Origin: Alistipes sp.
GTDB taxonomy: Bacteria; Bacteroidota; Bacteroidia; Bacteroidales; Rikenellaceae
NCBI GenBank assembly: GCA_017465055.1
Contig: JAFTWZ010000010.1
Span: 1 to 35,092, forward strand
DNA: 35,092 nt
Reading direction: 5' to 3'
Below, in pieces: positions 1,305 through 30,034 of this stretch. Each line of letters opens with the position of its first letter. Positions within the stretch are counted from its first letter, which is position 1. The translations under genes and the position numbers were made by a program. Under the pieces are notes generated by a model. The model ran no database searches. It was not told where the DNA came from and saw nothing but the letters and a program-made list of their open reading frames with translations.

Positions 1305-1327
1305 CGTAAAGGTATATTCGCGTCGGT

Positions 1328-4813: not shown

Positions 4814-4840
4814 TGTTTATCTCCGATTATTGGTTACTTA

Positions 4841-5578: not shown

Positions 5579-5637
5579 AGTGTAATAGTTTTTATATTTT
5601 AGATACTTCTTACCTCTTATATATATACATAATCGCG

Positions 5638-5645
5638 CAAAGGTA
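5638..5645 (-). promoter_or_regulatory. -7 element of the yebC-ileS promoter
   Basis: The minus strand reads TACCTTTG, a perfect TAnnTTTG. A -33 TTTG at the ideal distance is not clear. The region up to the yebC start is AT-rich and contains no other gene. Confidence 0.6.
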
Positions 5646-5699
5646 GTAAAAAGTTTTCAAATTTGCAATTAGCCGTGGTGTTTCAGGCTGCGAAAGGGA

Positions 5700-6080
5700 G
5701 AGGGGCGCGCCTAAAGGCGCTAAAGTGTAGCTCGCGCCTGCGGCGCTAAAGGGTAGTTCGCGCCTTCGGCGCTAAAGAGTAGTTCGCGCCTTCGGCGCTA
5801 AAGGGTAGTTCGCGCCTAAAGGCGCTAAAGGGAGATTAAGGAGTTTAGTGAGTTTAGCGACAACGCTTCAGCCGCACCGGCCTTGCCGTTATAGTAACCC
5901 ATTGTAACTCATAGTAACCCATTGAAACCCACTCACGCGTCAGCGCTTTACCGCACCAACATCCCTGCACCCTTAACTACCCTTTAGCTCGCCGCAGGCG
6001 AGCGAGCTACCCTTTAGCAGGCTCTGCCTGCGAACTACCCTTCTACTACCCTTAATCTTTCACGCGCAAGCTCCTCACAA
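5700..6080. repeat. Composite intergenic hairpin repeat, left flank of the ATPase unit
   Basis: Five hairpins in plus orientation (5703-5830: stems GCGCC/GGCGC with loops taaa, tgcg and ttcg) are separated by CTAAAGNGTAG. The centre block follows in minus orientation (TTTAGCGACAACGCTTCAGC, then decamers ATAGTAACCC/ATTGTAACTC at 5891-5930). Reverse-oriented hairpins follow (5975-6050, CTCGCC-gca-GGCGAG and GCAGGC-tct-GCCTGC). It ends in CACGCGCAAGCTCC, a block also present in inverted form beyond 7662. Confidence 0.82.
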
Positions 6081-6136
6081 CCCCATAACACCCCTACACC
6101 CCCCCTGTTATGATGTTATGGCGTTATGGCGTTATG
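6081..6136 (+). repeat. Left arm of 55-bp inverted repeat around the ATPase gene
   Basis: This arm runs from CCCCATAACACCCC through TGTTATGATGTTATGG to GTTATG and ends exactly at the ATPase stop codon (6137). Its reverse complement matches 7607-7661 with one substitution and one C-run indel. It contains tandem GTTATGGC units (period 8). Confidence 0.9.
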
Positions 6137-7300: not shown

Positions 7301-7312
7301 AGTACATAAAAT

Positions 7313-7425
7313 TTAATAGTTAGTATATATATATTTATATATATTATATATAATATCTTAGTACACACTAATATATAACTATAAATATATATATATTAAT
7401 ATACCTATATTATAGTTGTCTATTA
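7313..7425. other. Alternating TA-rich tract in the ATPase leader
   Basis: More than 100 bases of almost pure A/T with many TATATA runs sit just upstream of the ATPase start and downstream of a TATATTTG -7 element (7476-7483, minus). The neighbouring DNA is GC-rich, so the contrast is sharp. It may be an easily melted (unwinding-type) site or a leader with regulatory folding. No gene is present. Confidence 0.6.
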
Positions 7426-7475
7426 GTGCGGCACTACCGCCTTAACTGGCTTGTGAAAGCATCTATCTCGTAGTG

Positions 7476-7483
7476 CAAATATA
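7476..7483 (-). promoter_or_regulatory. -7 element of the ATPase gene promoter
   Basis: The minus strand reads TATATTTG, a perfect TAnnTTTG, giving a leader of about 165 nt. The nearest TTTG (7498-7501) is closer than the usual 19-20 bases, so the -33 part is uncertain. Confidence 0.45.
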
Positions 7484-7606
7484 CAACTATTTAACACCAA
7501 AGTCAAGCGTTTTGGTAAATATTTTTACACTAATTTAACTTTGAGGATTGAATTAGATTGATATCGAGGATATTGACGCCCGTAGCTCGGCGCGGTATGA
7601 CGAGGT

Positions 7607-7661
7607 CATAACGCCATAACGCCATAACATCATAACAGGGGGGTGTGGGGGTGTTATGGGG
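7607..7661 (-). repeat. Right arm of 55-bp inverted repeat around the ATPase gene
   Basis: This arm runs CATAACGCCATAACGCC to GTGTTATGGGG, the reverse complement of 6081-6136 with one substitution and one homopolymer difference. Beyond it lie GCTTGCGCG and TTAAGGGTAG blocks, which mirror the left flank. Confidence 0.9.
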
Positions 7662-8170
7662 AGGGAGGGGCTTGCGCGGGGGGGGGTGAGTGTGGCTGTC
7701 GCGTGGAGCTTGCGCGTGGGGGTTTAAGGGTAGTTCGCTCGCTTTAGCGAGCTAAAGAGTAGTTCGCAGGCGATGCCTGCTAAAGAGTAGCTCGCTCGCT
7801 GACGCGAGCTAAAGGGTAGTTAAGGGAGCAGGGAGGTTTGTGCGGTTAAAGCGTTGACGCGTGAGTGGGTTTCAATGGGTTACTGTGAGTTACGATGGGT
7901 AACTATAACGGCAAGGCCGGAGCGGCTAAAGCGTTGTCGCGTGAGTGGGTTTCAATGGGTTACTATGAGTTACAATGGGTTACTATAACGGCAAGGCCGG
8001 TGCGGTTAAAGCGTTGTCGCTAAACTCACTAAACTCCCTTTAGCGCCTTTAGGCGCGCACTACTCTTTAGCGCCGCAGGCGCGAACTACCCTTTAGCACC
8101 GCAGGTGCGAACTACCCTTTAGCTCGCCGCAGGCGAGCGAGCTACCCTCTCCACTCCCCTTTAGCGAGCG
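7662..8170. repeat. Composite intergenic hairpin repeat, right flank of the ATPase unit
   Basis: Plus-oriented hairpins lie at 7722-7815. Two tandem copies (period 80) of a centre block follow, starting GTGAGTGGGT at 7861 and 7941. Each carries decamers of the form GGGTTACTAT and ends AACGGCAAGGCCGG. From about 8038 the hairpins are reverse-oriented and include GCACC-gca-GGTGC (8096-8108) and GCTCGCC-gca-GGCGAGC. No gene is visible. Confidence 0.83.
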
Positions 8171-8264
8171 AACACCAAGTCCCTAACCAACAGCACATTA
8201 CCGCACCCCACAACTCCATTAATTAAAAAAATTGCAAGAATTATTGAAATTTTTTAATAAAATG

Positions 8265-8296
8265 TTTGGCAGTTTAGAACATTCTCTTTACCTTTG
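8265..8296 (+). promoter_or_regulatory. Strong Bacteroidetes promoter for the structured RNA
   Basis: TTTG (8265-8268), 20 bases, then TACCTTTG (8289-8296), an ideal match. Transcription should start near 8303. There is no ORF of note before the terminator at 8450-8459. Confidence 0.8.
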
Positions 8297-8302
8297 CAGC
8301 GA

Positions 8303-8459
8303 AGTTTTAAGGTTCATTTAGGTTAGTAGTTTTAGGTTGGAAGGCCTATCGAAAGGTTGTAGCAAAAGGTGCTCACTCTGCGGAGGAGTAGGTTTTGTTA
8401 CTAAGACAGTGGCGGATGCGCCCCGAGTCGAACACCTTTCGGTAGACCTATTTTTTTTT
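8303..8459 (+). ncRNA. Structured non-coding RNA of unknown family
   Basis: A complete unit of about 155 nt with its own promoter (8265-8296). A 16-base stem, with 15 pairs, closes the RNA (8342-8357 with 8434-8449) and is followed by nine T, so the closing stem doubles as the terminator. Inside, GGTGCTC...CTC can pair with GAGTC..CACC (8369-8436), and GTTTT...AAGAC forms a small hairpin. AAAGGT occurs twice on the 5' side (near 8352 and 8365), and both copies could pair with the single ACCTTT, suggesting two exclusive folds. I do not see the SRP motif (AGCAGCC with a GGAA loop), tmRNA or RNase P elements. A divergent 6S RNA is possible but short. Confidence 0.65.
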
Positions 8460-8460
8460 G

Positions 8461-8700
8461 TAGTAGGGCGCGACTAAAGGCGCTAAAGGGAGCTTAAGGA
8501 GTTTAAGGAGTTTAGGGAGTTTAGCGACAACGCTTTAACCGCACAAACCTTCCACGCCAGCGATATCGTCAGCGACAACGCTTCAGCCGCAGAGGCCGCC
8601 CTGCTCCCCACAATCCCCACAATCCCCAGAGCAAGCTCTGCTTGCGGTTATCCCCATAATCCCCAGTCATCCCACGCGCAAGCTCCACGCTCACCCCTCC
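8461..8700. repeat. Short composite intergenic repeat
   Basis: One decayed hairpin unit (GGCGCGACTAAAGGCGC) is followed by repeated AAGGAGTTTA/AGGGAGTTTAG, the TTTAGCGACAACGCTTTAAC centre motif twice, CCCCACAATC repeats (8608-8630) and ending CACGCGCAAGCTCCACG. No credible gene is present. Confidence 0.7.
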
Positions 8701-19849: not shown

Positions 19850-20070
19850 TGTGGGTTGCAATGAGTTATAATGAGTTACGACGGGTTAATATGATAGCAA
19901 TGTGCGTAGCTTGCGCGAGCTAAAGGGTAGTTCGCAGGCAGAGCCTGCTAAAGAGTAGTTCGCGCCTGCGGCGCTAAAGAGTAGCTCGCTCGCTTGCGCG
20001 AGCTAAAGGGAGTTTAGTGAGTTTAGTGAATTTAGCGACAACGCTTTAGCCGCACGCACCGACCTTGCCG
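19850..20070. repeat. Composite intergenic hairpin repeat
   Basis: Decamers GGGTTGCAAT/GAGTTATAAT lie at 19853-19890, then four hairpins with CTAAAGNGTAG spacers at 19910-20004 (stems GCAGGC-aga-GCCTGC, GCGCC-tgc-GGCGC, GCTCGC/GCGAGC). The centre motif TTTAGCGACAACGCTTTAGC and GACCTTGCCG follow. It lies between the efflux promoter and the left end of the integrated element. No gene is present. Confidence 0.82.
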
Positions 20071-20200
20071 TCATAGTAACCCATCGCAACTCATCATAAC
20101 CCATAGAAACCCATCGCAACGCATTATAACCCATCGAAGCCCATAGAAACCCATCTAACCCCATAGAAACCCATCGTCACTCATAGAAACCCATTGTAAG
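20071..20200. repeat. Thirteen phased 10-bp tandem repeats
   Basis: From 20071 to 20200 the sequence falls into 13 consecutive decamers without a single insertion or deletion, consensus YCATnnnAAC (most often CCATAGAAAC or CCATCGCAAC). The last unit is degenerate at its 3' end. Four-unit versions occur at 5891-5930 and in 7861-7990. The period is one turn of B-DNA. Confidence 0.92.
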
Positions 20201-20223
20201 CCCCCGAGTCTGCGTTTAGGCGT

Positions 20224-20266: not shown

Positions 20267-20269
20267 TGG

Positions 20270-20283
20270 AGGTCTGAAGCGGA
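20270..20283 (+). other. attL core (tRNA-Cys 3'-end remnant)
   Basis: AGGTCTGAAGCGGA is identical to 29964-29977. Similarity continues weakly to the left (GATTTTG at both sites with one indel) and stops to the right. Confidence 0.85.
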
Positions 20284-20322
20284 ACTCAAACAATAAATCG
20301 CACTAAATCATACTAAACTATA

Positions 20323-20353
20323 TTATAAGTGTATATCAATTAGTTATAAGTGT
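20323..20353 (+). repeat. Two TTATAAGTGT repeats, 21 bp apart
   Basis: TTATAAGTGT occurs at 20323-20332 and 20344-20353, two helical turns apart, between the attL core and the arm-like sites. It could bind an excisionase or directionality factor such as the DUF3853 protein; that is inference. Confidence 0.55.
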
Positions 20354-20388
20354 GATTTTTGATTTTCTATTTAAGATAGTCTAATAAA

Positions 20389-20421
20389 ATGTAGCGAATA
20401 TGTTGCAAATATGTAGCAAAT
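20389..20421 (+). repeat. Left arm-type sites: three tandem 11-bp units
   Basis: ATGTAGCGAAT, ATGTTGCAAAT and ATGTAGCAAAT run head to tail. The same motif recurs at 29874-29895. The third unit abuts the TTTG of the integrase promoter, so integrase binding could repress its own gene. Confidence 0.8.
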
Positions 20422-20423
20422 AA

Positions 20424-20455
20424 TTTGATAAAGTCGTAATAAATCCTTAACTTTG
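20424..20455 (+). promoter_or_regulatory. Integrase promoter
   Basis: TTTG (20424-20427), 20 bases, then TAACTTTG (20448-20455). The predicted start is near 20462, 20 bases before the integrase ATG. Confidence 0.75.
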
Positions 20456-20481
20456 TGTATTGAACAAAACCAATAAGGATT

Positions 20482-21906
20482 ATGGCTTCTTGTGTATTTT
20501 TTATTCGCTCGGAAAAGAGCAAGGCAACCAAAGCAAAGAAACCCGATGCTCAAATAAGAATTGCACTTCGTGGATATGTTAATGGCAAACTGGTTAATGC
20601 GTTTGCCAAGAGTGGTGTATGGACACCAGAAGATGTGTGGAAAAACAAGGGCAGAGATAAGTATTTCGAAGCGAAATACATTGCCACAACTGCACACACG
20701 CAAGCTGGTGGCAAGGAGGAGCGTATCCCTACCTATCCGGACATATACAAAAAACACTTAATTCTATCTGATATCAAAGACCGATGCCAAAGATTTTACA
20801 ATATGCTCGGTCCTGATGCGGTCTTTACCTCCGAATGGTTGCAGGGGGTTGTCGATGGCTATTGGGCAGACATTAAGCGCAAAGAGGATGCAGAACGAGA
20901 GAAACAAGAAGCAGAAGCCAAGAAAGAGAGCCTCAACGCCTATATTGCTCGATATATCGAGGAGATAAGCAACGGCATACGCCTAACCAACAAGGGAACG
21001 ATTTACAAGCACGGAACGGTAAAGGCGATTAAAGCATCGATGACCCAGTTTGCAGAATTTCAACAAGCAAACGGCATATCGCTCAACTTCGATGATATAG
21101 ATTTGGAGTTCTATCGACAATATACTGCGTGGCTCACTCGCAAGGGTTACACACTTAACTCGCTCGGTAAGTGCATTAAGGATATAAAAGTGATAATGAC
21201 CGCAGCCAAAGATGACGAGCTGACCACTAACGAGGCTTACAAGGCGAAAAAGTTTAGAGTTACCGCAGAGGAAGCCGATAATATCTACCTCACAAAAGAG
21301 GAATTAGAAGCTATTGCAAAGGTTGATTTGTCGAAGATGGCAAAGGGTTATGAGATAGCAAGGGATGTGTTTTTGGCTGGTTGTTGCCTTGCACAGAGAG
21401 TGTCCGACTACAACCGATTGACACCCTACAATGTAGTAACCGAGGTACACAAGAGCATCGGAGAGAATGACGAGATAATCAAGGAGGAGGTTACATATAT
21501 CGTTATCGACCAACAAAAGGAGAATGTGCGTGTTCGCATACCTGCAAATAAAATGATGCTCGGCTTGCTTGCAAAGTACAACAACCACCTACCATATATT
21601 TGGGAGCAGAAATTAAATCAATATATCAAGGTAGTAGCGGAAATGGCAGGCATAACCGAGGAAGTGCCGATAACCTCAACAAAGGGAGGTAAGAGAGAAA
21701 CAGCCAACATCCGCAAGTGCGACCTTGTAAAGACACACACGGCACGCAGAACTGGCGCAACTTTGATGTATTTATCGGGGATGGATCTCTACGATATATG
21801 CAAGATTACAGGACACACCAACATTAAAAATCTACGCAAGTACATAAAGGCTGACGAGTTGGATGTGGCAACCAAGATAACCAAATACGATTATTTCAAA
21901 AATTAG
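20482..21906 (+). CDS. Tyrosine recombinase (site-specific integrase)
   Basis: 474 aa. The N-terminal arm-binding domain is followed by a SAM-like core-binding domain (about 150-260, LNAYIARYIEEISNG...LEFYRQYTAWL) and a catalytic domain. Catalytic residues are Arg306 (LAQRVSDY), His419 and Arg422 (HTARR), His445 (GHTNI) and the nucleophile Tyr454 (RKYIK). It catalyses integration and excision at tRNA-Cys. It lies at the left end next to attL and three candidate arm sites, and has its own promoter. It is typical of Bacteroidetes element integrases. Confidence 0.96.
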   Translation: MASCVFFIRSEKSKATKAKKPDAQIRIALRGYVNGKLVNAFAKSGVWTPEDVWKNKGRDKYFEAKYIATTAHTQAGGKEERIPTYPDIYKKHLILSDIKDRCQRFYNMLGPDAVFTSEWLQGVVDGYWADIKRKEDAEREKQEAEAKKESLNAYIARYIEEISNGIRLTNKGTIYKHGTVKAIKASMTQFAEFQQANGISLNFDDIDLEFYRQYTAWLTRKGYTLNSLGKCIKDIKVIMTAAKDDELTTNEAYKAKKFRVTAEEADNIYLTKEELEAIAKVDLSKMAKGYEIARDVFLAGCCLAQRVSDYNRLTPYNVVTEVHKSIGENDEIIKEEVTYIVIDQQKENVRVRIPANKMMLGLLAKYNNHLPYIWEQKLNQYIKVVAEMAGITEEVPITSTKGGKRETANIRKCDLVKTHTARRTGATLMYLSGMDLYDICKITGHTNIKNLRKYIKADELDVATKITKYDYFKN

Positions 21907-21918
21907 GAGGACAAAAGT

Positions 21919-21984
21919 ATGTTGTTTAGTGTTTTATGTTTCTTTTGCTTTTTGGCTGAAGTGTTAGGTCAAAAGCATTATTAA
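21919..21984 (+). CDS. Small hydrophobic peptide (21 aa)
   Basis: ATG at 21919 follows AGGAGG by eight bases, a strong Shine-Dalgarno site that is unusual in this window. The peptide is MLFSVLCFFCFLAEVLGQ plus three residues, with an almost entirely hydrophobic first half that could insert in the membrane. It lies 12 bases after the integrase stop and 18 before the next gene. It could also be a leader peptide or chance. I know no family. Confidence 0.4.
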   Translation: MLFSVLCFFCFLAEVLGQKHY

Positions 21985-22002
21985 AAGAGGAGGGCAAAGA
22001 GT

Positions 22003-23001
22003 ATGAGATATAGAGAATTTGCAAATATGTACAAACTACACGGATTTTGGCATCAAGTGTATAGTTATACCATTACAAAGTTGGGGTATAAAGTACCATT
22101 TTTAACTCGAACTATTCCAGAGCCAAAGCTGATGATGAATAGTGGATTGAAATTCGATGCGGTTGTGTATGGATGGGATTACCTCGATTGGGTAGATTTT
22201 AATAGTCCTACACTAATGGAAGTTGTAGATGAGATAAAGCAAAATATGAGAATGTTACAAGCAGACCAAAGAACAAATTACATCTGTGATATTCTCAAAG
22301 ATTTTCATCCTCTATGGGAAATGGTCTTATACCCAATGTACAACGATAAGAATTGGGTTGAGAATTATGAGGATGTTATTGCAATAATTGAAGGTGGTTA
22401 TTGCCCAGCGTCATACAATGCACCAGAGGATGATGAGCCGCAAATTTACGAATGTGAGTCAGAATGTCTATTTCTGTCAATTACATTTGGGGCTTATATG
22501 GATTTTTTCTCGCACATACGAATTTTATGTTATGAAAATTCCATCGACTTTGAAAAATTGCAAGATGATAATGGTTTGTGGGTTAGTTTTGTAAGCGATT
22601 TAAGATGTAAAGAGGTGCCTATTGCAGGAAGTAGACAACGATATGAAAATTTGAAGCAACAAACAAAGGGCGAATATGATTCGATGGCGGACTATTTTAG
22701 AGATGGTAAAAGGTTTAAGGAGTTTGGAAGGATTTTACTACAATTACAAAATAAGAAGTATTTAGAGGGGGGAAGATGGCTCGCTGATAAAGTCGAATTG
22801 CAAGCACTTATAAAAAGGATGTGCGATTATGACTATTTTAGGGATGCTTATGTACATAAACCAAGCAAATTGCGAGATTTTATCCAAAAGATGTTTGGAA
22901 TATTGTTAAGGCAAGAATTGGAGTACGGAAAACTTAATAACTGCGTAGATTCTTTGTATTTGAATGATATAGACATAAAACCATTCAATGAACTAAATTA
23001 G
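22003..23001 (+). CDS. Unknown 332-aa protein
   Basis: I recognise no family or catalytic motif. The protein is soluble-looking, rich in aromatic residues and mostly helical in the C-terminal half (residues 215-320, many Lys/Leu/Arg). An acidic Cys-containing loop (NAPEDDEPQIYECESEC) is near residue 145. The start has a good Shine-Dalgarno site (GAGGAGGGC). Base composition is clearly AT-rich, and the gene sits between the integrase and the replication genes, where satellites and IMEs often carry accessory or defence genes. It ends before a strong terminator. Confidence 0.8.
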   Translation: MRYREFANMYKLHGFWHQVYSYTITKLGYKVPFLTRTIPEPKLMMNSGLKFDAVVYGWDYLDWVDFNSPTLMEVVDEIKQNMRMLQADQRTNYICDILKDFHPLWEMVLYPMYNDKNWVENYEDVIAIIEGGYCPASYNAPEDDEPQIYECESECLFLSITFGAYMDFFSHIRILCYENSIDFEKLQDDNGLWVSFVSDLRCKEVPIAGSRQRYENLKQQTKGEYDSMADYFRDGKRFKEFGRILLQLQNKKYLEGGRWLADKVELQALIKRMCDYDYFRDAYVHKPSKLRDFIQKMFGILLRQELEYGKLNNCVDSLYLNDIDIKPFNELN

Positions 23002-23040
23002 CCTTACGATTTATACGGTATCAATTACGATTTTGAAAAT

Positions 23041-23078
23041 TGCCCTTGTATCTCAATGAGTTATGAGGGCATTTTTTT
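23041..23078 (+). terminator. Terminator after the unknown 332-aa gene
   Basis: TGCCCT (23041-23046) pairs with AGGGCA (23066-23071), followed by seven T. It isolates the integrase side from the replication genes. Confidence 0.8.
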
Positions 23079-23186
23079 ATTTTCTACGATTTGTATTATC
23101 TCCTATTATAGCAGCTTAATATTGTACTATCGAATTCGAGATAAAGGGGTCGCTCCCCGATTGTTGAATGATTAAATTTGGAAACG

Positions 23187-23480
23187 ATGGTATATAACAA
23201 TTTTACAGAAGCCACACCTTTGGCAATGCTAACGGTTGGGCAGTTAAAGGAGATTATCGCATCGGCAATGCCGAAGCAAGAGGAACAACCGAAACCCGAA
23301 GCTACACCTACATATATATATGGGTTGGCTGGTATTCGGGAAATGTTCGGAGTATCACACGCAACCGCACAAAAGTTAAAAGACACGGTACTTGCACCTG
23401 CCGTAAAACAATATGGGCGTAAAATCGTGGTGGATGCTCGGATGGCGATGGAACTCTTTGCTAATCGTAATCGCAGATAG
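23187..23480 (+). CDS. DUF3853-type HTH DNA-binding protein
   Basis: 97 aa from the ATG at 23187 (MVYNNFTEATPLAMLTVGQL); a TTG nine bases upstream is less likely. The C-terminal part (YIYGLAGIREMFGVSHATAQKLKDTVLAPAVKQYGRKIVVDA) is a winged-helix/excisionase-like module in which YGLAGI..MFGVS forms the HTH. DUF3853 proteins are common in Bacteroidetes mobile elements. It may act as excisionase or replication/transcription regulator. The helicase gene begins one base after its stop. Confidence 0.8.
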   Translation: MVYNNFTEATPLAMLTVGQLKEIIASAMPKQEEQPKPEATPTYIYGLAGIREMFGVSHATAQKLKDTVLAPAVKQYGRKIVVDARMAMELFANRNRR

Positions 23481-23481
23481 T

Positions 23482-24786
23482 ATGGAGGAGATAAAACAAG
23501 CCCCTCATACGCTTGAAAGCGGACAAGAGGCAGATACACGGCAAGCGATTGATTTTCACTGCAAAGATACAAACAATATCCCAATAATGCAATATCGTAG
23601 AGTTGGAGATAAGTACGAAAAGACCATAACCAATTACGATATAGAGGGCAGACCTTATGAGGATATTATTACGCTATCCAAAGAGTCAATCGTTGATACG
23701 CACGGCAAGGATTTTTTGCACCGCATACCATTATATGACGCTCATTGTATAGTCCCAAGTCATACGGATTTTAAGCAAGTTGTTGGTCGATGTTGGAACT
23801 TGTACCGACCTATCGAGCAAAGACCGATACAAGGGGAACATAGAGCTTGGGATGCTCTGATGCAAAGAGTGTTTGGCTCGCAAGAGGCTCTCGGTTGGGA
23901 CTACCTTACAATAATGTATCGCTACCCAACTCACACCCTCCCGGTGCTATGCCTCGTGTCCAAAGCCAATCACACTGGCAAAAGTACCTTTGGCAATGCT
24001 CTTTCCTATCTCTTCGGTCTTAATGTAGGGTTTTTCACTCAGGACGACTTAACATCGACCTTCAACCAGTGGATTAAGCACCTTGTGGCGGTATTCGAAG
24101 AGATTAGTGAAACCAAGCACACCCTTAATAAGATTAAGGCAATGGCAACGGCTAAAATGGCAACACTAAACGAAAAGCATCTTCGCCAAGTCAAATTTCA
24201 GCCGTTTGTAAAGTTGATTATTTTATCTAACAACGATAGCACCTTCATCAAGGCGAATAGAGAAGATATAAGGTACTGGGTGCGACAACTTACGCCATTG
24301 GGTGATGGGGAATACGACAAGGATTTTGATGCCAAGTTGAGGGAGGAAGTCCCTGCGGTACTTTGTACACTGGCTCATCGTGAAATCACGACACCAAAGC
24401 AGAGTAGAATGTGGTTTGCCCCAAGCCTAATAGCAACCCAAGCTCTCGATGTCGTGCGAAATGAAAGCCGTGCCGATGTCGTCAAGGACTTGGAGATTGT
24501 GATTGATGAACTTCTTGCCGAAGAGCCATACTTTCACGCTACGATAGGCGATTTTGTGGAGTTGCTAAAAAAACAATATCCTCAAAATGTTATTAAAAAG
24601 GCTTTGAACGAGGAGTTTGGAGCATACCCAACACCCAAGAGCATCCGATTTAAGAGCGTGCGAGGAACTACACAATTTGGCAAGGGCAGTAGAACGGGAA
24701 CACCCTACCTATTCAAGCGTAAGGATGTGAACGAGGAGGATGTTAAGGAAGAGCCTGACCCCTACGATGCGAGTGTGCCATTTTAA
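23482..24786 (+). CDS. SF3-type (DUF5906/P4-like) helicase
   Basis: 434 aa from the ATG at 23482; an upstream in-frame start inside the previous gene is unlikely. The Walker A motif is at residues 161-169 (KANHTGKST, Lys167), Walker B VFEEISE has Glu206-Glu207, and a sensor-like IILSNND follows at about 245-252. A C-terminal HTH-like region (residues 340-400) is present. SF3 helicases melt an origin and unwind DNA for the replication of viruses, plasmids and satellites. It works most plausibly with the primase encoded at 24974 on the intervening AT-rich spacer. Confidence 0.85.
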   Translation: MEEIKQAPHTLESGQEADTRQAIDFHCKDTNNIPIMQYRRVGDKYEKTITNYDIEGRPYEDIITLSKESIVDTHGKDFLHRIPLYDAHCIVPSHTDFKQVVGRCWNLYRPIEQRPIQGEHRAWDALMQRVFGSQEALGWDYLTIMYRYPTHTLPVLCLVSKANHTGKSTFGNALSYLFGLNVGFFTQDDLTSTFNQWIKHLVAVFEEISETKHTLNKIKAMATAKMATLNEKHLRQVKFQPFVKLIILSNNDSTFIKANREDIRYWVRQLTPLGDGEYDKDFDAKLREEVPAVLCTLAHREITTPKQSRMWFAPSLIATQALDVVRNESRADVVKDLEIVIDELLAEEPYFHATIGDFVELLKKQYPQNVIKKALNEEFGAYPTPKSIRFKSVRGTTQFGKGSRTGTPYLFKRKDVNEEDVKEEPDPYDASVPF

Positions 24787-24973
24787 GTGTGGAACAAATA
24801 ATTGACAAATTCAACATATAAATTAACACAATTTCCCTATACAATCCCTTATAGAGAGTATTATATAATGATTGTTGAAAAAGTTGAAAAAGTTAATTAA
24901 AAAATAGGTTTGGCAGAGTTAGGAAAGAATTGGAAAAGTGAAATAAACAACAACAAATTCAACATTTTGAACG
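24787..24973 (+). other. AT-rich spacer with repeats, candidate origin
   Basis: There is no gene. ACAAATTCAACAT occurs at 24805-24817 and 24953-24965, and GTTGAAAAA is present twice in tandem (24874-24891), containing the inverse GTTGAA. It lies between the helicase and primase genes, as replication origins of small elements often do. No functional evidence. Confidence 0.45.
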
Positions 24974-25831
24974 ATGAATGTGTCATACTATAAAAATGTA
25001 ACAAATAGCCGCACCCCTATCGGGTCTTTACCTCTTACCTCAATACTCTTCTCGGAGCGTGTGAGGGCGAGAGTTGAGGCATTGAGAGCGTTGCCCTATG
25101 GCTCTGCCGAGTTCAGCCAAGCCAAGCGGTCTATGCCCTGCTACACTCCATCGGGCGTGTTCAGCGTAAGGAACTCGGAGGGACTTATTAAGCATAGCGG
25201 AATGTTATGTATCGAGTGGGATGCCGTTGCTGACTGCTCGGAGTTGAAAGACCTACTCGGCTCGTTGCCGTTCATCTTCTACGCTGGGTTATCGTGTTCG
25301 GGTCGAGGCGTGTTCGCACTCATTAAGATTGCAGACCCAACCAAGCATCGGGAGTATTTCCGTGCGTTGAGTGTGTATTTCGCAGGGATAGGTTACGAGG
25401 TGGATAGAAGCGGTAGCGATGTGTGCCGCTTGCGTGTAGCATCGTGGGATGCCGAGCCAGTGTTCAATCCCGAAAGTGAGGTGTGGAGCGAGTTGCCGAG
25501 AGTGGTCGAGCCGACCTTTACACCCCGAATGGCTACCTCTACCGATGAAAGGTTGTTGCTTGCAGGGGTTGAGTACATAACTCGGCACGGCATAGACATC
25601 ACGCAAGGGCGTAATAACTGGCTATCCATAGGGTCGTGCGTCAAGTCTATAATGGGAGCAGGGGGCGAAGATGTGTTTGTGACTCTTTCCAGTTACCACC
25701 CACAATATCGGGAAAGTGATGCTCGGAAAACCTACCGCACCATAGCAGGGAACGGCTACGGAATAGGAGTATTTGCATCGGCTTGTTCGAGGGCAGGAGT
25801 ACCGAAATTAACAGATTTAGTAAAACAATAA
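24974..25831 (+). CDS. VirE-N/BT4734-family primase
   Basis: 285 aa. The N-terminal domain (residues 1-175) matches the BT4734/VirE-N fold, a primase-polymerase-like module: GMLCIEWDAV with Asp, then FYAGLSCSGRGVFALIKI, and the R-S-G-S-D-V-C-R-L-R segment. Residues 185-285 resemble a PriCT-2 domain (NNWLSIGSCVKSI...SYHPQYRESDARKTYRTIA). It probably primes replication of the excised element. The order helicase then separate primase is the reverse of many Bacteroidetes elements. GC content is higher than that of the integrase gene. Confidence 0.88.
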   Translation: MNVSYYKNVTNSRTPIGSLPLTSILFSERVRARVEALRALPYGSAEFSQAKRSMPCYTPSGVFSVRNSEGLIKHSGMLCIEWDAVADCSELKDLLGSLPFIFYAGLSCSGRGVFALIKIADPTKHREYFRALSVYFAGIGYEVDRSGSDVCRLRVASWDAEPVFNPESEVWSELPRVVEPTFTPRMATSTDERLLLAGVEYITRHGIDITQGRNNWLSIGSCVKSIMGAGGEDVFVTLSSYHPQYRESDARKTYRTIAGNGYGIGVFASACSRAGVPKLTDLVKQ

Positions 25832-25844
25832 AAATTAAACGAAT

Positions 25845-26186
25845 ATGACAAGATTAGATTTGATTACCAAGACCATAACCGATGCACTCGGCTACGATGT
25901 TGCGGAGGTTACTTTCGAGGGTAATGTGGCAGATGTTACCACCACAGACCCCGAGCGATTTAGTGTAATGCTCTACGAGCGTAAGGCGGAGCAAGCGGAT
26001 GAGCCTTGTTTCTCCCTATCGAGCAACGGCATCCAATCGTGCCGAGCGTGTAAGTGTGGGTATTTCGCTTACCTCTACGGCAACAAGGCGTGTGCCATCG
26101 TTGAGGTGGAACACCCCGACTACGAGAGCCAAGACGAGTTTGGCGATGAAGTTTACACCTACGCAAACCCTTTGCTCGATGAGTAG
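25845..26186 (+). CDS. Small acidic protein with CxxCxC motif, unknown
   Basis: 113 aa, acidic, with CRACKCG at about residues 67-73 that could bind a metal. The rest shows beta-rich alternation and no family I recognise. It is translated in a tight series: 13 bases after the primase gene and overlapping the next gene by eight bases. Confidence 0.75.
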   Translation: MTRLDLITKTITDALGYDVAEVTFEGNVADVTTTDPERFSVMLYERKAEQADEPCFSLSSNGIQSCRACKCGYFAYLYGNKACAIVEVEHPDYESQDEFGDEVYTYANPLLDE

Positions 26187-26373
26187 CGATTATTGCGGAC
26201 TATCCCCCTCGCGGATTGAGGAGATACGAGAACGCCACCGCCACTTTGTACCTGTTCGAGTGGATGACCGCACAACCATATTTATCGACCCCTCTCGGAA
26301 TGTTGAGGAGGCACGAAAGCGATTTATTAAGGATTTGAAATTTTGGAGAACTAAACACTTTAACGATGAATAG
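26179..26373 (+). CDS. Small basic protein, unknown
   Basis: 64 aa (MSSDYCGLSPSRIEEIRERH...). It starts inside the end of the previous gene and overlaps the following gene by eight bases; such overlaps support real, coupled translation. Arg/Lys-rich helices suggest nucleic-acid or protein binding. No family recognised. Confidence 0.65.
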   Translation: MSSDYCGLSPSRIEEIRERHRHFVPVRVDDRTTIFIDPSRNVEEARKRFIKDLKFWRTKHFNDE

Positions 26374-26641
26374 AGAAAAGAAAAAGGAGTATTATGCTCG
26401 GATAGGGTTTTGCGAGAGGATTACCCCAGAGGATAAGGTGTTTGCGTGTTTGATATGTTGCGGATATAGTGCCTCGCAGGCGTATATTATAGCATATCCG
26501 ACCAAAGCAAGCATCAATAGTGCCGCAGCTCTCGCCAGCCGTAAGGTCGGTTCGTGGGAAATACAAGCCGTTTTACGCTACTTTAAGCGAATGTACGATA
26601 ACGGCTCGGTAGCCTTTCCCGACCATCTAATAAAGAATTAG
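26366..26641 (+). CDS. Small-terminase-like HTH protein (weak call)
   Basis: 91 aa. The segment KVFACLICCGYSASQAYIIAYPTKASINSAAALASRKV resembles the N-terminal HTH of phage small terminase subunits, where an A-Y-x-x-A-Y-P..S..A.A.ASR pattern is common. If correct it would recognise a pac site and support packaging by a helper phage, as in phage satellites. It lacks the C-terminal part of a full TerS and could be a generic HTH regulator. It overlaps the preceding gene by eight bases. Confidence 0.6.
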   Translation: MNREKKKEYYARIGFCERITPEDKVFACLICCGYSASQAYIIAYPTKASINSAAALASRKVGSWEIQAVLRYFKRMYDNGSVAFPDHLIKN

Positions 26642-26682
26642 GGCAAAGAATATCAATGTATAACAAATTAAAAATCAAGAAA

Positions 26683-26910
26683 ATGCAAAACAATTATCAA
26701 GAGATTATCGATTTGGTAGCCAAGAAGTGCCAAGAGGTGTTAGCACCACTTTACGCTGAATTGGAGGAGTTGCGTGCCAAGTATTACCCAGCAGAGCCAA
26801 AGGTTAAGCAACCGACCCCCGAAGAGGTTGAGGATGCGGAGTTGGAGGAGAAACGCAAGGAGTGGCAAAAGTTGGCTAACGAACTCCGTGAGCAAGGAAA
26901 AATTCAATAA
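26683..26910 (+). CDS. Small coiled-coil protein, unknown
   Basis: 75 aa from the ATG at 26683; an in-frame ATG at 26656 would add nine residues. It is highly charged, with two predicted helices (YQEIIDLVAKKCQEVLAPL; EEVEDAELEEKRKEWQKL) joined by a proline-rich linker. It is plausibly a coiled coil. No known function. Confidence 0.6.
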   Translation: MQNNYQEIIDLVAKKCQEVLAPLYAELEELRAKYYPAEPKVKQPTPEEVEDAELEEKRKEWQKLANELREQGKIQ

Positions 26911-26932
26911 CGATATTAACACAACCAAGATT

Positions 26933-27568
26933 ATGACAAAAGAGAAAAAGAATATATCGTATGTGCCTTATGTATCGAAAGAGATTATAGAGGACACAAT
27001 TAGAGATTTTAATGCACGATGCCAACGCTTACACGACTTACTCGCATCGAAGAATGAAACCCTCCAAGACGCTATCAAATACCAGTCGGATGGAGTGGAT
27101 TGGAAAAGAAAGGCGAAGATTGCAGAATGTGAGGCATATATCGAGCGTACGCAGATGCCTACTTACCTACGACAATCGGCTCTCGATGCAGCCCACAATG
27201 ACAACGATAACGACTATATCCGACTACTTGCGGGAGCGTTTGGCTCGTTCCACTTCGATTGTTCGAAAGATATTGAGATTGTAGGCGATAAGTGGGTTAT
27301 CGCTCAACATATAGTCGATGAGATTATAGACAAGCATACCTACACCCTTACGGATAAGGAAATGAAACTCTTTGCTCGGTACAAGCAGATGATTGAGATT
27401 GCGGAGGAGTTGCACCGAGAGTATTATTTCTTTGGAGGAACACTCGACTATAACGATGAGTTGAGAATGTACGACACAGAGGCGGAACTTGCCGAGCGTT
27501 TCATCAGTTGCCAACGAGCAACACCCGAAGAGATTGCAGAACGAAAAAAGAAATACGGCTCAATATAG
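26933..27568 (+). CDS. Unknown 211-aa helical protein
   Basis: The start is the ATG at 26933 (MTKEKKNISYVPYVSKE). A longer frame through the preceding gene is not credible. It is helical and charged, with no motif I recognise; the C-terminus has YYFFGGTLDYNDELRMYDTEAELAERF. It is the last gene of the block from 25845, and a perfect terminator follows 31 bases after its stop. Confidence 0.72.
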   Translation: MTKEKKNISYVPYVSKEIIEDTIRDFNARCQRLHDLLASKNETLQDAIKYQSDGVDWKRKAKIAECEAYIERTQMPTYLRQSALDAAHNDNDNDYIRLLAGAFGSFHFDCSKDIEIVGDKWVIAQHIVDEIIDKHTYTLTDKEMKLFARYKQMIEIAEELHREYYFFGGTLDYNDELRMYDTEAELAERFISCQRATPEEIAERKKKYGSI

Positions 27569-27598
27569 GTCTGACAGCCTCATAGTGTTTTTTAGTTG

Positions 27599-27633
27599 GG
27601 AGTGGCTTGCGTATGCAGGTCGCTCCTTTTTTT
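27599..27633 (+). terminator. Terminator ending the replication/small-gene block
   Basis: GGAGTGGCTTGC (27599-27610) pairs with GCAGGTCGCTCC (27615-27626), including three G-U pairs, with a GTAT loop, then seven T. The T run overlaps the -33 box of the next promoter. Confidence 0.88.
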
Positions 27634-27661
27634 GCTCGATAAGAATAATTTACTAACTTTG
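27631..27661 (+). promoter_or_regulatory. Promoter for the structured RNA/cargo transcript
   Basis: TTTG (27631-27634), 19 bases, then TAACTTTG (27654-27661), an ideal match. Transcription would begin near 27668. There is no ORF until 28017. Confidence 0.8.
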
Positions 27662-27667
27662 CAATAG

Positions 27668-27850
27668 AATTGCGGGATACGCAGTTTGTTTGATGGCATT
27701 TAGGCTATTGTTGTTATTGAGTAAAACGACCAAATTATTACTACGAACACACAATAGGCACACTAAATGCTCACGCTGTATGGCGTGGGTTGTGCTTATG
27801 TTCGTATGGGTGCTTGGTCGTACCTTCTCAATAGTAAGCTATACCCACGC
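27668..27850 (+). ncRNA. Rod-like structured RNA of the element
   Basis: Five nested stems stack into one rod: TATTGAG/CTCAATA (27715-27721 with 27827-27833), ACGACCAA/TTGGTCGT (27726-27733 with 27814-27821), TACGAACA/TGTTCGTA (27742-27749 with 27799-27806), GCACA/TGTGC (27758-27762 with 27791-27795) and CACGC/GCGTG (27772-27776 with 27783-27787). It has its own promoter. It may be a separate RNA or the long leader of the lipoprotein gene. No riboswitch or retron family recognised; no reverse transcriptase nearby. Confidence 0.62.
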
Positions 27851-28016
27851 TTCTCTTTTGAGTTAAGCGGTTGTTATCTAACAGCAACGAGTGCAAAAAG
27901 CACTATTATATGTTTAACTTAAATTCAAAGTATTATGTGGTTTGTTGTAGTATGTTTAACAAGCATAAGCATCAATATCCAAGTTTAATTTAGAGTAACT
28001 ATTAAATCATACAACT
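27851..28016 (+). other. AT-rich leader upstream of the lipoprotein gene
   Basis: Small hairpins only: TGTTA-TC-TAACA near 27875 and AGTGC-aaaaa-GCACT at 27890-27904. I see no gene and no second TAnnTTTG promoter, which suggests the cassette is read from the promoter at 27654 or that its promoter is weak. Confidence 0.4.
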
Positions 28017-28823
28017 ATGAAACGAGCATACAAAAATATGCACACCTTATTTGCTGTGATAATCGCAATAAGTTGTATCTCTTGTTCAAATGAGAGAGTC
28101 GATATTCTATCAACCATTCCAGATGGTTTTGACCCGATGTATATGTATGGTAATGTCAAGGAGGTTATTGTTACATCGGAATATATGTGCGATACAATCA
28201 AATTAGATAAGGCAGGGAGGATTATACAAAAAGGACATAGGCATTATTCATACGATGCAGATGGTGTTTTAATAAGCCAACAGGCGGGGCATATCAAGAA
28301 CGAGTATGTCTATGATGGCAATTTGCTTGTAGCAACTAAATGCTATCGCCGTAATACATTAGATGATATTTACAAGTATTTCTATAACGACAAAAGTCAA
28401 ATTGTTTCAAAAAAATGGTATAGTGATGACGAGTTAAAGCAAGAATGTCGGTATGAATATAATGATGATGGGAATGTATCAAGCGAAACGGATATAGATT
28501 ATTACATTACCAATAGCATATATAATCGCTTGGGCTATAAAGTTGAACCATCAATGACTCGCACTATTTATTCTTACGACAAGAAAGGAAATGCTATAAA
28601 AGAAGATTATTACAATAACTCCAACGAGGTAAGCCGTTCTACTAATTTCAAGTATGACGATAAGGGTAATGTCATTTATGAGGAAGAATTAGATTATGAC
28701 GATATGGAGAAAGAGATTATTACTTATAGATACAAGTATGACCGAAAAGGTAATTGGATAGAACAAGTTGCATCTTGCAATGGAGAAACAAGAACTACTA
28801 AAAGAGAGATTACATACTATTAA
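28017..28823 (+). CDS. Lipoprotein with YD/RHS-like repeats, unknown
   Basis: 268 aa. The signal peptide (residues 1-23, AVIIAISCISC) ends in a Cys suitable for lipidation. The body has repeated short beta motifs of the form YxYDxxG/YNDDG (HYSYDADGVL, YEYNDDGNV, YSYDKKGNA, FKYDDKGNV, YKYDRKGNW), as in YD/RHS-like repeats found in many Bacteroidetes surface lipoproteins. No toxin domain follows. It is probably exported and membrane-anchored. It starts a three-gene series with 11- and 3-base gaps and is the first likely cargo gene. An immunity or receptor-modification role is only a guess. Confidence 0.85.
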   Translation: MKRAYKNMHTLFAVIIAISCISCSNERVDILSTIPDGFDPMYMYGNVKEVIVTSEYMCDTIKLDKAGRIIQKGHRHYSYDADGVLISQQAGHIKNEYVYDGNLLVATKCYRRNTLDDIYKYFYNDKSQIVSKKWYSDDELKQECRYEYNDDGNVSSETDIDYYITNSIYNRLGYKVEPSMTRTIYSYDKKGNAIKEDYYNNSNEVSRSTNFKYDDKGNVIYEEELDYDDMEKEIITYRYKYDRKGNWIEQVASCNGETRTTKREITYY

Positions 28824-28834
28824 ACAAAAGTCTT

Positions 28835-29188
28835 ATGGAGAATTTAGAAGAAAAAATCGTTGAGCAAACAACGAATGAGGTGGAACAAACATCTGTTTCG
28901 CAAGAAGAACAAACCGTGAATGTCAATTTCAAAAGCATTATTAAGTGGGGACTTGTAGCATTAGGATTTATTTTCCTATCAGTTGGTATTAACTACTTGA
29001 TTCAGGATTTGCACTATTTAGACAATCCGATGGACTTTACCGAAGAGCGTTATGTTGGAGGTGATGCCTATAATTACATCATATCGGCAGCCCGTTCAAC
29101 TGCTGTTATGGTAAAAAGTTTAATTTGGGTAGTTTTAGGTTGCTCTTCAATAATGGTAAGTCGCACTATTCATACCACGAAAGAATAG
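28835..29188 (+). CDS. Small two-TM membrane protein, unknown
   Basis: 117 aa. The N-terminus is acidic and glutamine-rich (residues 1-30), with membrane segments at about 38-57 (WGLVALGFIFLSVGINYLI) and 92-110 (VKSLIWVVLGCSSIMV). No family recognised. It lies between the lipoprotein and a second membrane protein and probably acts with them in the envelope. Confidence 0.78.
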   Translation: MENLEEKIVEQTTNEVEQTSVSQEEQTVNVNFKSIIKWGLVALGFIFLSVGINYLIQDLHYLDNPMDFTEERYVGGDAYNYIISAARSTAVMVKSLIWVVLGCSSIMVSRTIHTTKE

Positions 29189-29191
29189 ACT

Positions 29192-29599
29192 ATGATTGTA
29201 AAAAAGAAAAATCTAATAATAGTTTGTATCGTAGTATCTATTAGCGTTATTGTAGCCTCAATCGCCATTTCTGCTTATGTTAGAAAAGCAAGTGAGGAGC
29301 GTGAGAAACAAGAACTAATGAACAAATTCAATCGAGCTGTTGATAGAGAATATAAAGACCTCGAAAGAGAGTATAACTCGATAGTCGATGTTATCAAGGA
29401 TTACGACTACTCCGATTCGTTTAGATGGAAATATATTATTAAGTTAAGCGATTTGGTTGATGACTATGAATATAGGCGTGTATATGCAGACTATGGAGTT
29501 AGTTCTGTTTTGAGCCGTATAAGAAGTAACAAAGAGAAAGATATGACAACACTAAAAACCAAAGCACAAATTAAAGTGCTTTACGGAGAAGACGACTAA
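29192..29599 (+). CDS. Single-TM protein with coiled coil, unknown
   Basis: 135 aa. A lysine-rich start precedes a membrane segment (residues 7-28, NLIIVCIVVSISVIVASIAI). A long charged helix (30-75, KASEEREKQELMNKFNRAV...) follows, suggesting an extracytoplasmic coiled coil. No catalytic motif. It is followed by a terminator and ends the cassette. Confidence 0.78.
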   Translation: MIVKKKNLIIVCIVVSISVIVASIAISAYVRKASEEREKQELMNKFNRAVDREYKDLEREYNSIVDVIKDYDYSDSFRWKYIIKLSDLVDDYEYRRVYADYGVSSVLSRIRSNKEKDMTTLKTKAQIKVLYGEDD

Positions 29600-29620
29600 T
29601 CCAAAATGATTTAGATAGAT

Positions 29621-29650
29621 GAGGTTGCTGATTATCGGCAACCTCCTTTT
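29621..29650 (+). terminator. Terminator of the cargo cassette
   Basis: GAGGTTGC (29621-29628) pairs perfectly with GCAACCTC (29638-29645), then CTTTT. It lies 21 bases after the last cassette gene. Confidence 0.82.
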
Positions 29651-29782
29651 GTTATCAAGGTCGAGCCAAAAATTACATCAAAAAAATTTTAGGGTCGCAC
29701 CTAACCCTTTTACACTATCCGAGCCGATTACCCCTCGCACCCCTTGCCGGCATCGGAGTTCTGCGAGATTTAGAGCCAAGAG

Positions 29783-29866
29783 TTGCACGATTGCAAAAAA
29801 ATACTTATCTTTGCTCTACCTTAATACTCATAACTGACCGCTTGCCCATCGGGTAGGCGGTTTTTA
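29783..29866 (+). ncRNA. Promoter and terminator pair: possible tiny RNA or attenuator
   Basis: TATCTTTG at 29806-29813, with TTG at 29783-29785 20 bases before it, predicts a start near 29820. ACCGCTTGCCC then pairs with GGGTAGGCGGT (29837-29861), followed by TTTTT, so the RNA would be under 50 nt. In the excised circle this promoter would point through attP towards the integrase, so the hairpin could act as an attenuator there. This is inference. Confidence 0.45.
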
Positions 29867-29873
29867 TGTGCCT

Positions 29874-29895
29874 ATGTAGCGAATATGTAGCAACT
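29874..29895 (+). repeat. Right arm-type sites: two tandem 11-bp units
   Basis: ATGTAGCGAAT (29874-29884) is identical to the first left unit, and ATGTAGCAACT (29885-29895) differs by one base from the third. Same orientation as the left array, 69 bases from the right core. Confidence 0.8.
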
Positions 29896-29925
29896 ACTAT
29901 ACTATGACATAAAATAAAAATGGAT

Positions 29926-29957
29926 AACTCGTTGTATATCAACTTGTTATCCATTTG
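29926..29957. repeat. Hairpin next to attR
   Basis: AAATGGATAAC pairs with GTTATCCATTT around a central stretch. Downstream of tRNA-Cys on the minus strand it probably replaces the native terminator now found at 20224-20266. GTATATCAA inside it recurs at the left end near 20331. Confidence 0.55.
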
Positions 29958-29963
29958 ATTTTG

Positions 29964-29977
29964 AGGTCTGAAGCGGA
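29964..29977 (+). other. attR core within tRNA-Cys
   Basis: AGGTCTGAAGCGGA is the same as 20270-20283 and covers the tRNA 3' strand of the acceptor stem and part of the T arm. Confidence 0.85.
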
Positions 29978-30034
29978 TTCGAACCGCTGTACGAGGTTTT
30001 GCAGACCTCTGCCTAGCCACTCGGCCATCAGACC
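29964..30034 (-). tRNA. tRNA-Cys (GCA)
   Basis: 71 nt on the minus strand with a U73 discriminator. The acceptor GGTCTGA pairs with TCAGACC, the D stem is GCC/GGC, the anticodon stem GAGGT/ACCTC holds loop CTGCAAA (anticodon GCA), and the T arm GCGG TTCGAAT CCGC is canonical. CCA is not encoded. The gene is intact despite the insertion, because the element supplies the 3' end. Confidence 0.95.

Follow-up and report, generated by a model that had tools for sequence, protein, structure and literature searches.

A tRNA-Cys-integrated element of Alistipes with a terminase-small-subunit-like gene and no detectable relaxase: a candidate PICI-like phage satellite

The 9.7 kb integrative element found at 20269-29977 of the window (the 35,092-nt stretch of Alistipes sp. 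chromosome analyzed here) is inserted in a tRNA-Cys gene of this gut bacterium and, judged by its sequence, probably belongs to an Alistipes family of PICI-like phage satellites built on a mobilizable-element chassis. Its genes run in the order tyrosine integrase, HTH protein, DUF5906 helicase and BT4734/PriCT_2 primase, followed by five closely packed genes (p6-p7-TerS-p9-p10) and by cargo of low GC content (Table 1). In sister elements a relaxase follows the primase, and in the window that slot is occupied by the p6-p10 block with TerS; the presence of a TerS-like packaging gene in place of the sisters' conjugation gene makes spread in phage particles probable.

Table 1. Features of the element and of its integration site, in window positions.
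Feature	Position	Strand	Match or remark
att repeat, integrase end, 15 bp	20269..20283	+	exact copy of tRNA-Cys 3' end
Tyrosine recombinase/integrase, 474 aa	20482..21906	+	PF13102, PF00589; phrog_1 E 1.6e-21
p2, 332 aa, GC 0.35, variable, located between int and HTH	22003..23001	+	no family match
HTH protein, DUF3853, excisionase/AlpA-like position	23187..23480	+	PF12964 E 5.6e-13
DUF5906 (SF3-type) replicative helicase, 434 aa	23482..24786	+	PF19263 E 4.4e-16
Primase, BT4734-like_N + PriCT_2, 285 aa	24974..25831	+	PF08800 E 1.3e-14; PF08707 E 9.7e-7
p6, 113 aa, conserved	25845..26186	+	45-96% aa identity pairwise, six elements
p7, 64 aa, optional, conserved	26179..26373	+	75-88% aa identity, four elements
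Mini-TerS, 91 aa	26366..26641	+	phrog_51 (terminase small subunit) E 0.0018
p9, 84 aa, charged	26656..26910	+	same position in relatives
p10, 211 aa, conserved	26933..27568	+	34-93% aa identity pairwise, six elements
GC-rich inverted repeat then T-run, 3' of p10	27598..27633	+	terminator-like by eye
Lipoprotein-like, weak YD/RHS-repeat similarity, GC 0.34	28017..28823	+	TIGR01643 28.0 bits, cut-off 15.8
Small membrane-type protein, by eye	28835..29188	+	no convincing family
m13, small protein, membrane-anchored by eye, weakly SLATT-like	29192..29599	+	PADLOC RTasSLATT E 1.4e-4
Non-coding block, conserved; candidate pac/cos site for packaging	29657..29744	+	6/6 independent elements
att repeat, tRNA end, 15 bp	29963..29977	+	3' end of tRNA-Cys
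tRNA-Cys(gca), integration site	29963..30034	-	ARAGORN, Rfam

The direct repeat GAGGTCTGAAGCGGA (15 bp, exact) lies at 20269-20283 and 29963-29977, and these two copies at the element ends are the only ones on the + strand of the window. For 20 start positions against 600 bp, chance would yield ∼1e-5 such matches. GC content is 0.41 within the element and 0.53 outside. A sequence-only reading of this DNA had given the position of the element correctly to one base, and the size near 10 kb that it proposed agrees with the 9.7 kb between the repeats. The site is unoccupied in a relative, G140, in which the tRNA-Cys gene after rpoN carries no element. A 100%-identical copy in G143 was considered as a case of cross-species transfer and rejected: the identity extends over 17.7 kb including the flanks, and the two copies are the same DNA in two bins.

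Small integrative elements of this type (6.4-9.7 kb) form a family in Alistipes, and five independent relatives that retain the p6-p10 block, with p7 absent in two, are inserted in tRNA-Cys, -Leu or -Phe genes and carry unlike integrases or helicases. In all six elements with both ends present, the tRNA 3' end is repeated as att over 13-21 bp. The relatives do lie in tRNA genes, although it was TerS and helicase searches, and not a survey of tRNA sites, that led to them. Nucleotide identity between the window and L042 is 98 per cent for terS, 39 per cent for int and 50 per cent for p10; at the level of sequence, this exemplifies a gene-by-gene mosaic exchanged among the elements. A decaying prophage might also leave behind an integrase, a primase-helicase and a gene resembling terS, but that the element is such a remnant is very improbable, given that its ORFs are open, that five independent relatives share the same small gene set with no phage structural gene recognized, and that att repeats are present in all four of these relatives with both ends.

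The module set proposed earlier (integrase, small HTH, helicase, separate primase and overlapping small genes) is borne out by Pfam and PHROG matches and by 8-nt overlaps between p6 and p7 and between p7 and terS. The integrase matches Phage_int_SAM_5 (E 3e-11) and Phage_integrase (E 3e-6) and would move the element into and out of the tRNA 3' end, while the small HTH may serve as excision or regulatory factor; the slot of this DUF3853 protein is taken by HTH_17 in relatives L061 and L065 (above cut-off) and, with scores below cut-off, in L090, L070 and L071. Replication of the element would fall to the DUF5906 helicase, which has weak additional matches to VapE and Parvo_NS1, and to the primase. 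The intergenic DNA between these two genes is AT-rich and weakly conserved, and is a possible candidate for the origin.

Neither a relaxase, a coupling protein, TerL nor a convincing structural family was detected in the ORFs of the element when all 13 were scanned against Pfam and PHROGs and ten each against NCBIfam and PADLOC, and tblastn with three relaxase seeds gave zero matches in the window at E 0.01; the sequence-only reading was right on the absence of a relaxase. Among related DUF5906 regions without TerS in the genus Alistipes, 15 of 17 have a relaxase and the remaining two are truncated at the end of a contig, whereas the 10 TerS loci, like the window itself, have none. TerS and relaxase therefore exclude each other in these elements. 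In sisters L046, L050 and L053, for example, integrase, HTH, DUF5906 helicase and primase are followed by a relaxase of the Mob_Pre or PF03432 type.

All six TerS elements have in common a ∼90-bp non-coding block near the att end, which is a candidate packaging site on sequence grounds; the L008 copy has diverged, as has the left part of the window copy. A 28-bp core of the block is present in 6 of 180 Alistipes genomes, always within a TerS element. The block might instead be an oriT, with the TerS-like protein as an accessory DNA-binding protein and the element mobilized by a conjugative element. Such an oriT-only arrangement would account for a chassis shared with relaxase-bearing elements, for the ability of the block to form an imperfect inverted repeat, and could draw on the PF03432 relaxase of the same genome, matches to which are confined to another contig (C21). 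We nevertheless consider it unlikely: a 20-mer of the block (≤3 substitutions) is found in 0 of 17 sister DUF5906 regions, 15 of which have a relaxase (a scan that also misses the diverged L008 copy), the 28-bp core is found nowhere else in the 180 genomes, no MobC-type match was found among element proteins in Pfam, and the TerS homology would be left unexplained. The block was also considered as an RNA structure and rejected, with compensatory change in 0 of 19 predicted pairs.

The TerS-like protein of the window has no match in the Pfam scan and its own PHROG match is weak (E 0.0018), and its assignment draws on the ten-member family. TerS-like genes are also placed after int-HTH-helicase/primase in L010, L070, L071 and L090. 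Four of the ten members match phrog_51 (best E 2.9e-6), four match phrog_2606 (best E 6.8e-6), both of them TerS, and one matches Terminase_2 (E 2e-4); the TerS-like protein of L090 is without match in PHROG and Pfam scans. When viral contigs were scanned with the family alignment, 15 relatives were confirmed, which are close kin of one lineage found by a pattern built from the family itself, and TerL lies downstream in 14 of them, the 15th locus ending first; in the viral locus L093 this TerL is Terminase_6C (E 5.5e-15). Aligned by hhalign with five of the viral TerS, the family gives a probability of 96 per cent (E 1.9e-9) over 72 columns, which is nearly the entire mini-TerS. The homology covers the N-terminal part of phage TerS only: the C-terminal ∼100-200 aa are absent, and in Pfam and PHROGs the element shows neither a TerL neighbor nor, in its 91-aa protein, an oligomerization or TerL-contact region. 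The earlier TerS-like call has gained support, for the N-terminal part, from the terminase matches of family members and from the viral homologues adjoining TerL. The reading as a phage satellite is supported in part, its module set, size and lack of a relaxase being right.

The N-terminal HTH of mini-TerS thus appears homologous to that of phage TerS, and a LuxR-type HTH matches too. Against the ten-member profile the LuxR-type regulator L011 reaches E 6.9e-5 (hhalign 40 per cent), whereas the best Alistipes phage TerS reaches E 0.0028 (hhalign 24 per cent for three), and a profile of the six Alistipes members alone leaves phage TerS at background level (E 3 or worse). Because the LuxR-type protein outscores the Alistipes phage TerS, the protein could be an HTH with another role, a mere regulator of copy number or of a late promoter that resembles TerS through a shared fold, and its HTH-only length would suit this. 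We regard that as improbable, however, since the named-function PHROG matches of the family are all TerS except one exonuclease (E 0.14), unnamed phrog_17390 also matches a TerL-adjacent TerS, Terminase_2 leads the Pfam matches over DUF3618 (0.01), B12D (0.12) and SAC9 (0.17), the viral relatives adjoin TerL, and the hhalign alignment spans nearly the whole protein. Searched by tblastn in phages, single sequences gave three weak matches for L070 TerS (E 0.03-0.4, one annotated TerS), not counted as evidence, and zero for L090 TerS, and a search of PDB with mini-TerS gave a single meaningless match (E 0.3). Two TerS matches were rejected, one (G097) being a LuxR-type regulator by eye and the other (G243) having stops within the matched stretch and no surrounding element.

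Satellites are defined by excision and packaging that depend on a helper. In such a cycle mini-TerS would bind DNA of its own element, the conserved block beside the att end being the probable site, and together with p9/p10 may recruit large terminase and capsids from a phage that co-infects or is induced. There is perhaps an even chance that these elements represent an undescribed Bacteroidales satellite lineage in which the relaxase module was swapped for a packaging module (p6-p10, a DNA-binding-only TerS and the ∼90-bp pac-like block), such that a single integration-replication chassis can move by either route, conjugation or phage heads, and p9/p10 stand in for the C-terminal half that the stripped TerS lacks. 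That missing region is equally what would be expected of a dominant-negative form, and mini-TerS might act against phages, as a decoy that binds DNA and interferes with their packaging, in an element with variable cargo that spreads otherwise, for example by generalized transduction. That mini-TerS is linked both to genes for replication and to the conserved block suggests own propagation instead and makes a pure decoy doubtful; satellites are able to do both, so the decoy reading is partly compatible with that of a satellite. No record in the phage collection shares element DNA, neither the element nor the block turned up in a viral contig, and searches of phages and plasmids with the whole element gave zero matches. 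TerL (PF17289) and TerS (phrog_51) searches revealed no complete helper prophage, and no full-length phage combining these modules with this site was found.

PICIs and SaPIs are small elements with the order int, regulator, replication, small-gene operon with terS, cargo and att, and without capsid or TerL genes, which the window element resembles in layout and size class. It has an integrase with flanking att and a replication module, and it lacks both TerL and structural genes (a weak match of m13 to phrog_1383 aside). It differs from them in its Bacteroidales host, its DUF3853/HTH_17 regulator, a TerS of just 91 aa, a DUF5906 helicase with separate BT4734 primase in some elements, and in having no known interference or capsid-size genes and no known helper. 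It also differs from cfPICIs, whose own capsid genes are absent here (no convincing PHROG structural match), and P4-like psu, sid or delta did not surface in general Pfam/PHROG scans of the element proteins. From phage TerS (phrog_51/phrog_2606/Terminase_2) it has the N-terminal ∼72 aa without C-terminal domain or TerL neighbor. Bacteroidales mobilizable elements (IMEs) of this chassis, which we take to be NBU-like, share the integrase, HTH, DUF5906 helicase and primase but carry a relaxase where the window has the p6-p10 block. According to PMC13376191, the accessory genes of SaPIs are found close to int and in the stretch from terS to the 3' end, and those of the window are likewise placed; the order of modules in the window also fits the SaPI layout given there. 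The minimal satellites of Vibrionaceae (PICMIs) also have int, a small HTH and a primase, and PMC10803314 describes a search model with DUF5906/DUF3987 and PF12728, a position adjoining fis, and one member, PICMI115, in which no terS homologue was found; the window has DUF5906 with a DUF3853 HTH, carries TerS, and lies in tRNA-Cys of Alistipes and not at fis.

Bacteroidales dominate the gut. Phage satellites are known mainly from Proteobacteria and Firmicutes, to which some examples from the sea and from soil can be added, and the titles and abstracts covered by a literature search describe none in Bacteroidales, a group in which this lifestyle is hardly described. If the satellite reading is true, the TerS marker and the cis block could be used to find Bacteroidales satellites, and related elements that differ in having a relaxase or a TerS module could be compared as they occur in nature, so that the choice between transfer vehicles becomes directly testable.

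The remaining genes are less readily assigned. p2 is without family match in Pfam, PHROGs, NCBIfam and PADLOC, its C-terminal part is 32 per cent identical in L041/L062, and a resemblance to RteC was rejected for lack of Pfam support. Among the cargo, the YD/RHS-like gene has no tblastn match in relatives; the membrane-type gene after it was not found in relatives and has no convincing family in PHROGs, NCBIfam, PADLOC or Pfam; m13, likewise not found in relatives, weakly matches virion-protein phrog_1383 (E 0.027). p10 has no convincing match in Pfam, PHROGs, NCBIfam or PADLOC, and none of p6, p7, p9 and p10 matches a known capsid-remodeling or interference family. L063 and L008 have no separate p7, and terS there overlaps p6. 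The stretch around the inverted repeat and T-run after p10, which reads as a putative terminator, recurs downstream of p10 in five relatives (85-97 per cent match over 37-42 bp).

The element lies between 15-bp att repeats, the right one of which is the 3' end of a tRNA-Cys gene, and measures 9694 bp from att to att. Thirteen ORFs were followed within it, all on the + strand, and an integrase, an HTH protein (DUF3853), a DUF5906 helicase and a BT4734/PriCT_2 primase are clear by profile. ORFs p6 and p7 and the gene of a TerS-like protein of 91 residues (terS, mini-TerS) are joined by 8-nt overlaps, p9 and p10 follow after spacings of 14 and 22 nt, and a 448-bp gap separates p10 from three cargo genes. 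The simplest account of the element, judged from its gene content, would be a PICI-like cycle in which the integrase and HTH protein excise it, the helicase and primase replicate it, and mini-TerS with p9/p10 steers the terminase of a helper phage. A literature search of partial coverage found no description of phage satellites in Bacteroidota.

The sequence-only reading had held that the element carries no relaxase, and this was borne out in the window with three relaxase seeds, two confirmed by Pfam (Mob_Pre, E 5e-24; PF03432, E 1.4e-35) and the third below the cut-off (PF03432, E 4.6e-4). The helicase search matched 23 of 180 genomes of the genus Alistipes, and the helicase places without TerS were compared as 17 regions from 14 genomes, those of four further genomes being left out. 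A relaxase is found downstream in 15 of these regions (two of them depending on the third seed), while in the other two (L057 and L058) the contig ends just past the helicase; none of the 17 contains a TerS. The same seeds found no relaxase in any of ten TerS loci, three of which are cut by contig ends. Among helicase-ascertained loci, four with TerS and 15 with a relaxase give a Fisher p of 2.6e-4, but a number of the relaxase regions are closely related to one another, which lowers its true weight. Three relaxase elements, L046, L050 and L053, were read from end to end, and in these the relaxase follows the primase, in the slot that p6-p10 occupy in the window's family.

Mini-TerS alone matches phrog_51 of PHROGs at a weak E of 0.0018 and finds no match in Pfam. 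When the ten members of its family (four from other genera) were each scanned singly with E up to 1, phrog_51 and phrog_2606, which is also a TerS, each matched four of the ten (best E 2.9e-6 and 6.8e-6), Terminase_2 matched one (E 2e-4), and the remaining PHROGs were of unknown function except for one exonuclease at E 0.14; phrog_17390, of unknown function (E 0.001), also matches a TerL-adjacent Alistipes phage TerS. Against 951 ORFs of the collected loci, the best non-member match of the ten-member profile was a LuxR-type regulator (E 6.9e-5), followed by an Alistipes phage TerS (E 0.0028). A profile of the four distant members alone placed that phage TerS first (E 6.6e-4) and the LuxR-type regulator at 0.68, and with the six Alistipes members alone phage TerS stay within background. 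In the reverse test, the best other match to a profile of five Alistipes phage TerS was an element TerS at only E 0.11; TerL is the adjacent downstream gene in three of these five loci, confirmed by Pfam in two of the three.

When viral contigs were scanned with the ten-member alignment, 15 of 32 matching stretches were confirmed, and TerL lies downstream of the TerS relative in 14 of the 15 (tblastn; ORFs mapped in eight), the fifteenth locus ending before that point. With hhalign the family aligned to five viral-contig TerS at a probability of 96% (E 1.9e-9, 72 columns) and to three Alistipes phage TerS at 24%, against 40% for the LuxR-type control and 0.5% for the elements' own HTHs. Because the viral sequences belong to a single lineage (four have 70-79% identity with the first) and the scan pattern was derived from the family, they count as one supporting line and not fifteen. 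The earlier TerS-like call gains support: homology of mini-TerS to phage TerS is likely, and the likeness, as read from sequence, is to just the N-terminal DNA-binding part.

A non-coding block of ∼90 bp, the core of which is almost invariant, is common to all six elements. It lies after p10, or after the cargo, and before the tRNA end. The copy in L008 is diverged, as is the left side of the window copy, which is separated from the p10 hairpin by the cargo. Since the six elements occupy three tRNA sites and have unlike integrases, the block is no att sequence. Among 180 genomes of the genus, its 28-bp core (up to 3 mismatches) was found in six, as a single copy that in every case lies inside one of these elements, a search that misses the diverged G147 copy (L008); the backwards pattern, as a control, matched in none of the 180. 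A 20-mer of the block was absent from viral contigs (exact match) and from the other loci compared, including L090, L010, L070 and L071 (up to 3 substitutions). No compensatory base changes were seen, and thus the block may be a DNA signal. We propose it as a candidate packaging recognition site; an oriT, origin or terminator is a possible alternative.

Neither a complete helper phage nor a phrog_51 TerS match was recognized in the window's genome (84% complete), whose contig C10 carries one TerL-like gene (PF17289, E 0.002, short of the cut-off) adjoining a CI-type repressor. This locus (L128), where no other phage genes were recognized, is apparently a prophage remnant or else a tiny element. 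Searches of INPHARED (phages), PLSDB (plasmids) and IMG/VR turned up no copy of the element with the queries used.

Five independent relatives, all in ruminant-gut Alistipes, span 7387, 7728, 6813 and 6357 bp from att to att in the four with both ends; the more distant L090 spans 8055 bp. The minimal version is L065, with int, HTH, D5/DUF5906 helicase, p6, p7, terS, p9 and p10. Comparison of their sequences indicates that parts recombine gene by gene: the window and L042 share 98% DNA identity in terS, 39% in int and 50% in p10; int is 98% identical between L042 and L008, and the window helicase matches that of L042, not L008; and between the window and L065, p7 (86%) is flanked by p6 (57%) and terS (55%). 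The TerS family profile matched 10 of 180 genomes of the genus, the window's own included (G143 a duplicate of the window, G097 spurious, G243 doubtful), and order-wide four of 393, again including the window's own. The plan int-(x)-HTH-helicase/primase-TerS-like recurs in L070, L071, L010 and L090, and L069, near a contig end, has the TerS-like gene and cargo only. In G140 the tRNA-Cys after rpoN has no adjoining element, and the far flank is not syntenic with the window.

Coordinates and tRNA sites of the element, its parts, its relatives and neighboring features
Feature	Location	tRNA	Remark
Window element	20269-29977		
p2	22003-23001		between int and HTH; little common sequence with positional equivalents
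terS	26366..26641 (+)		
Cargo	28017-29599		low GC; YD-repeat-like lipoprotein and a pair of small membrane-type proteins, one of them with weak SLATT likeness
Conserved block	29657..29744		
Tandem repeats	20072-20201		10-bp units, CATAGAAACC-like; just outside integrase-side att
Dispersed repeats	1-8600 (several places); near 19,900-20,110		up to ∼200 bp, 77-92% identity
L041/L062		tRNA-Cys	relative
L042/L061		tRNA-Leu	relative
L008/L064		tRNA-Leu	relative
L063		tRNA-Cys	relative; integrase end lost at contig end
L065		tRNA-Phe	relative
L090	G101:C5, about 2,979,650-2,987,700	tRNA-Leu	second type; int, HTH, DUF3987, BT4734 primase, TerS-like (profile match only), cargo
L070	973-5854		int-HTH-helicase-TerS-like; very small, ∼5 kb
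L071	9272-14279		as L070; the two are from two other families of the order
L128	G000:C10:16382-18973		CI/S24-type repressor (by eye) adjoining lone TerL-like gene, between chromosomal genes

The GC content of the cargo genes is 0.34-0.37 and that of the backbone genes 0.43-0.51, with the exception of p2 (0.35), and the window cargo found no match in any relative tested (tblastn); a defence or surface function is possible. The C-terminal part of p2 presumably resembles RteC regulators, a likeness without profile support. The nearly closed Alistipes genome that hosts L090 (5 contigs) additionally carries the Mob_Pre mobilizable element L046. Contig L007 (G143:C37) is 100% identical to the window over 17.7 kb, and since G143 is filed as another species, misbinning or a split species is likely; the dispersed repeats came to light in this comparison.
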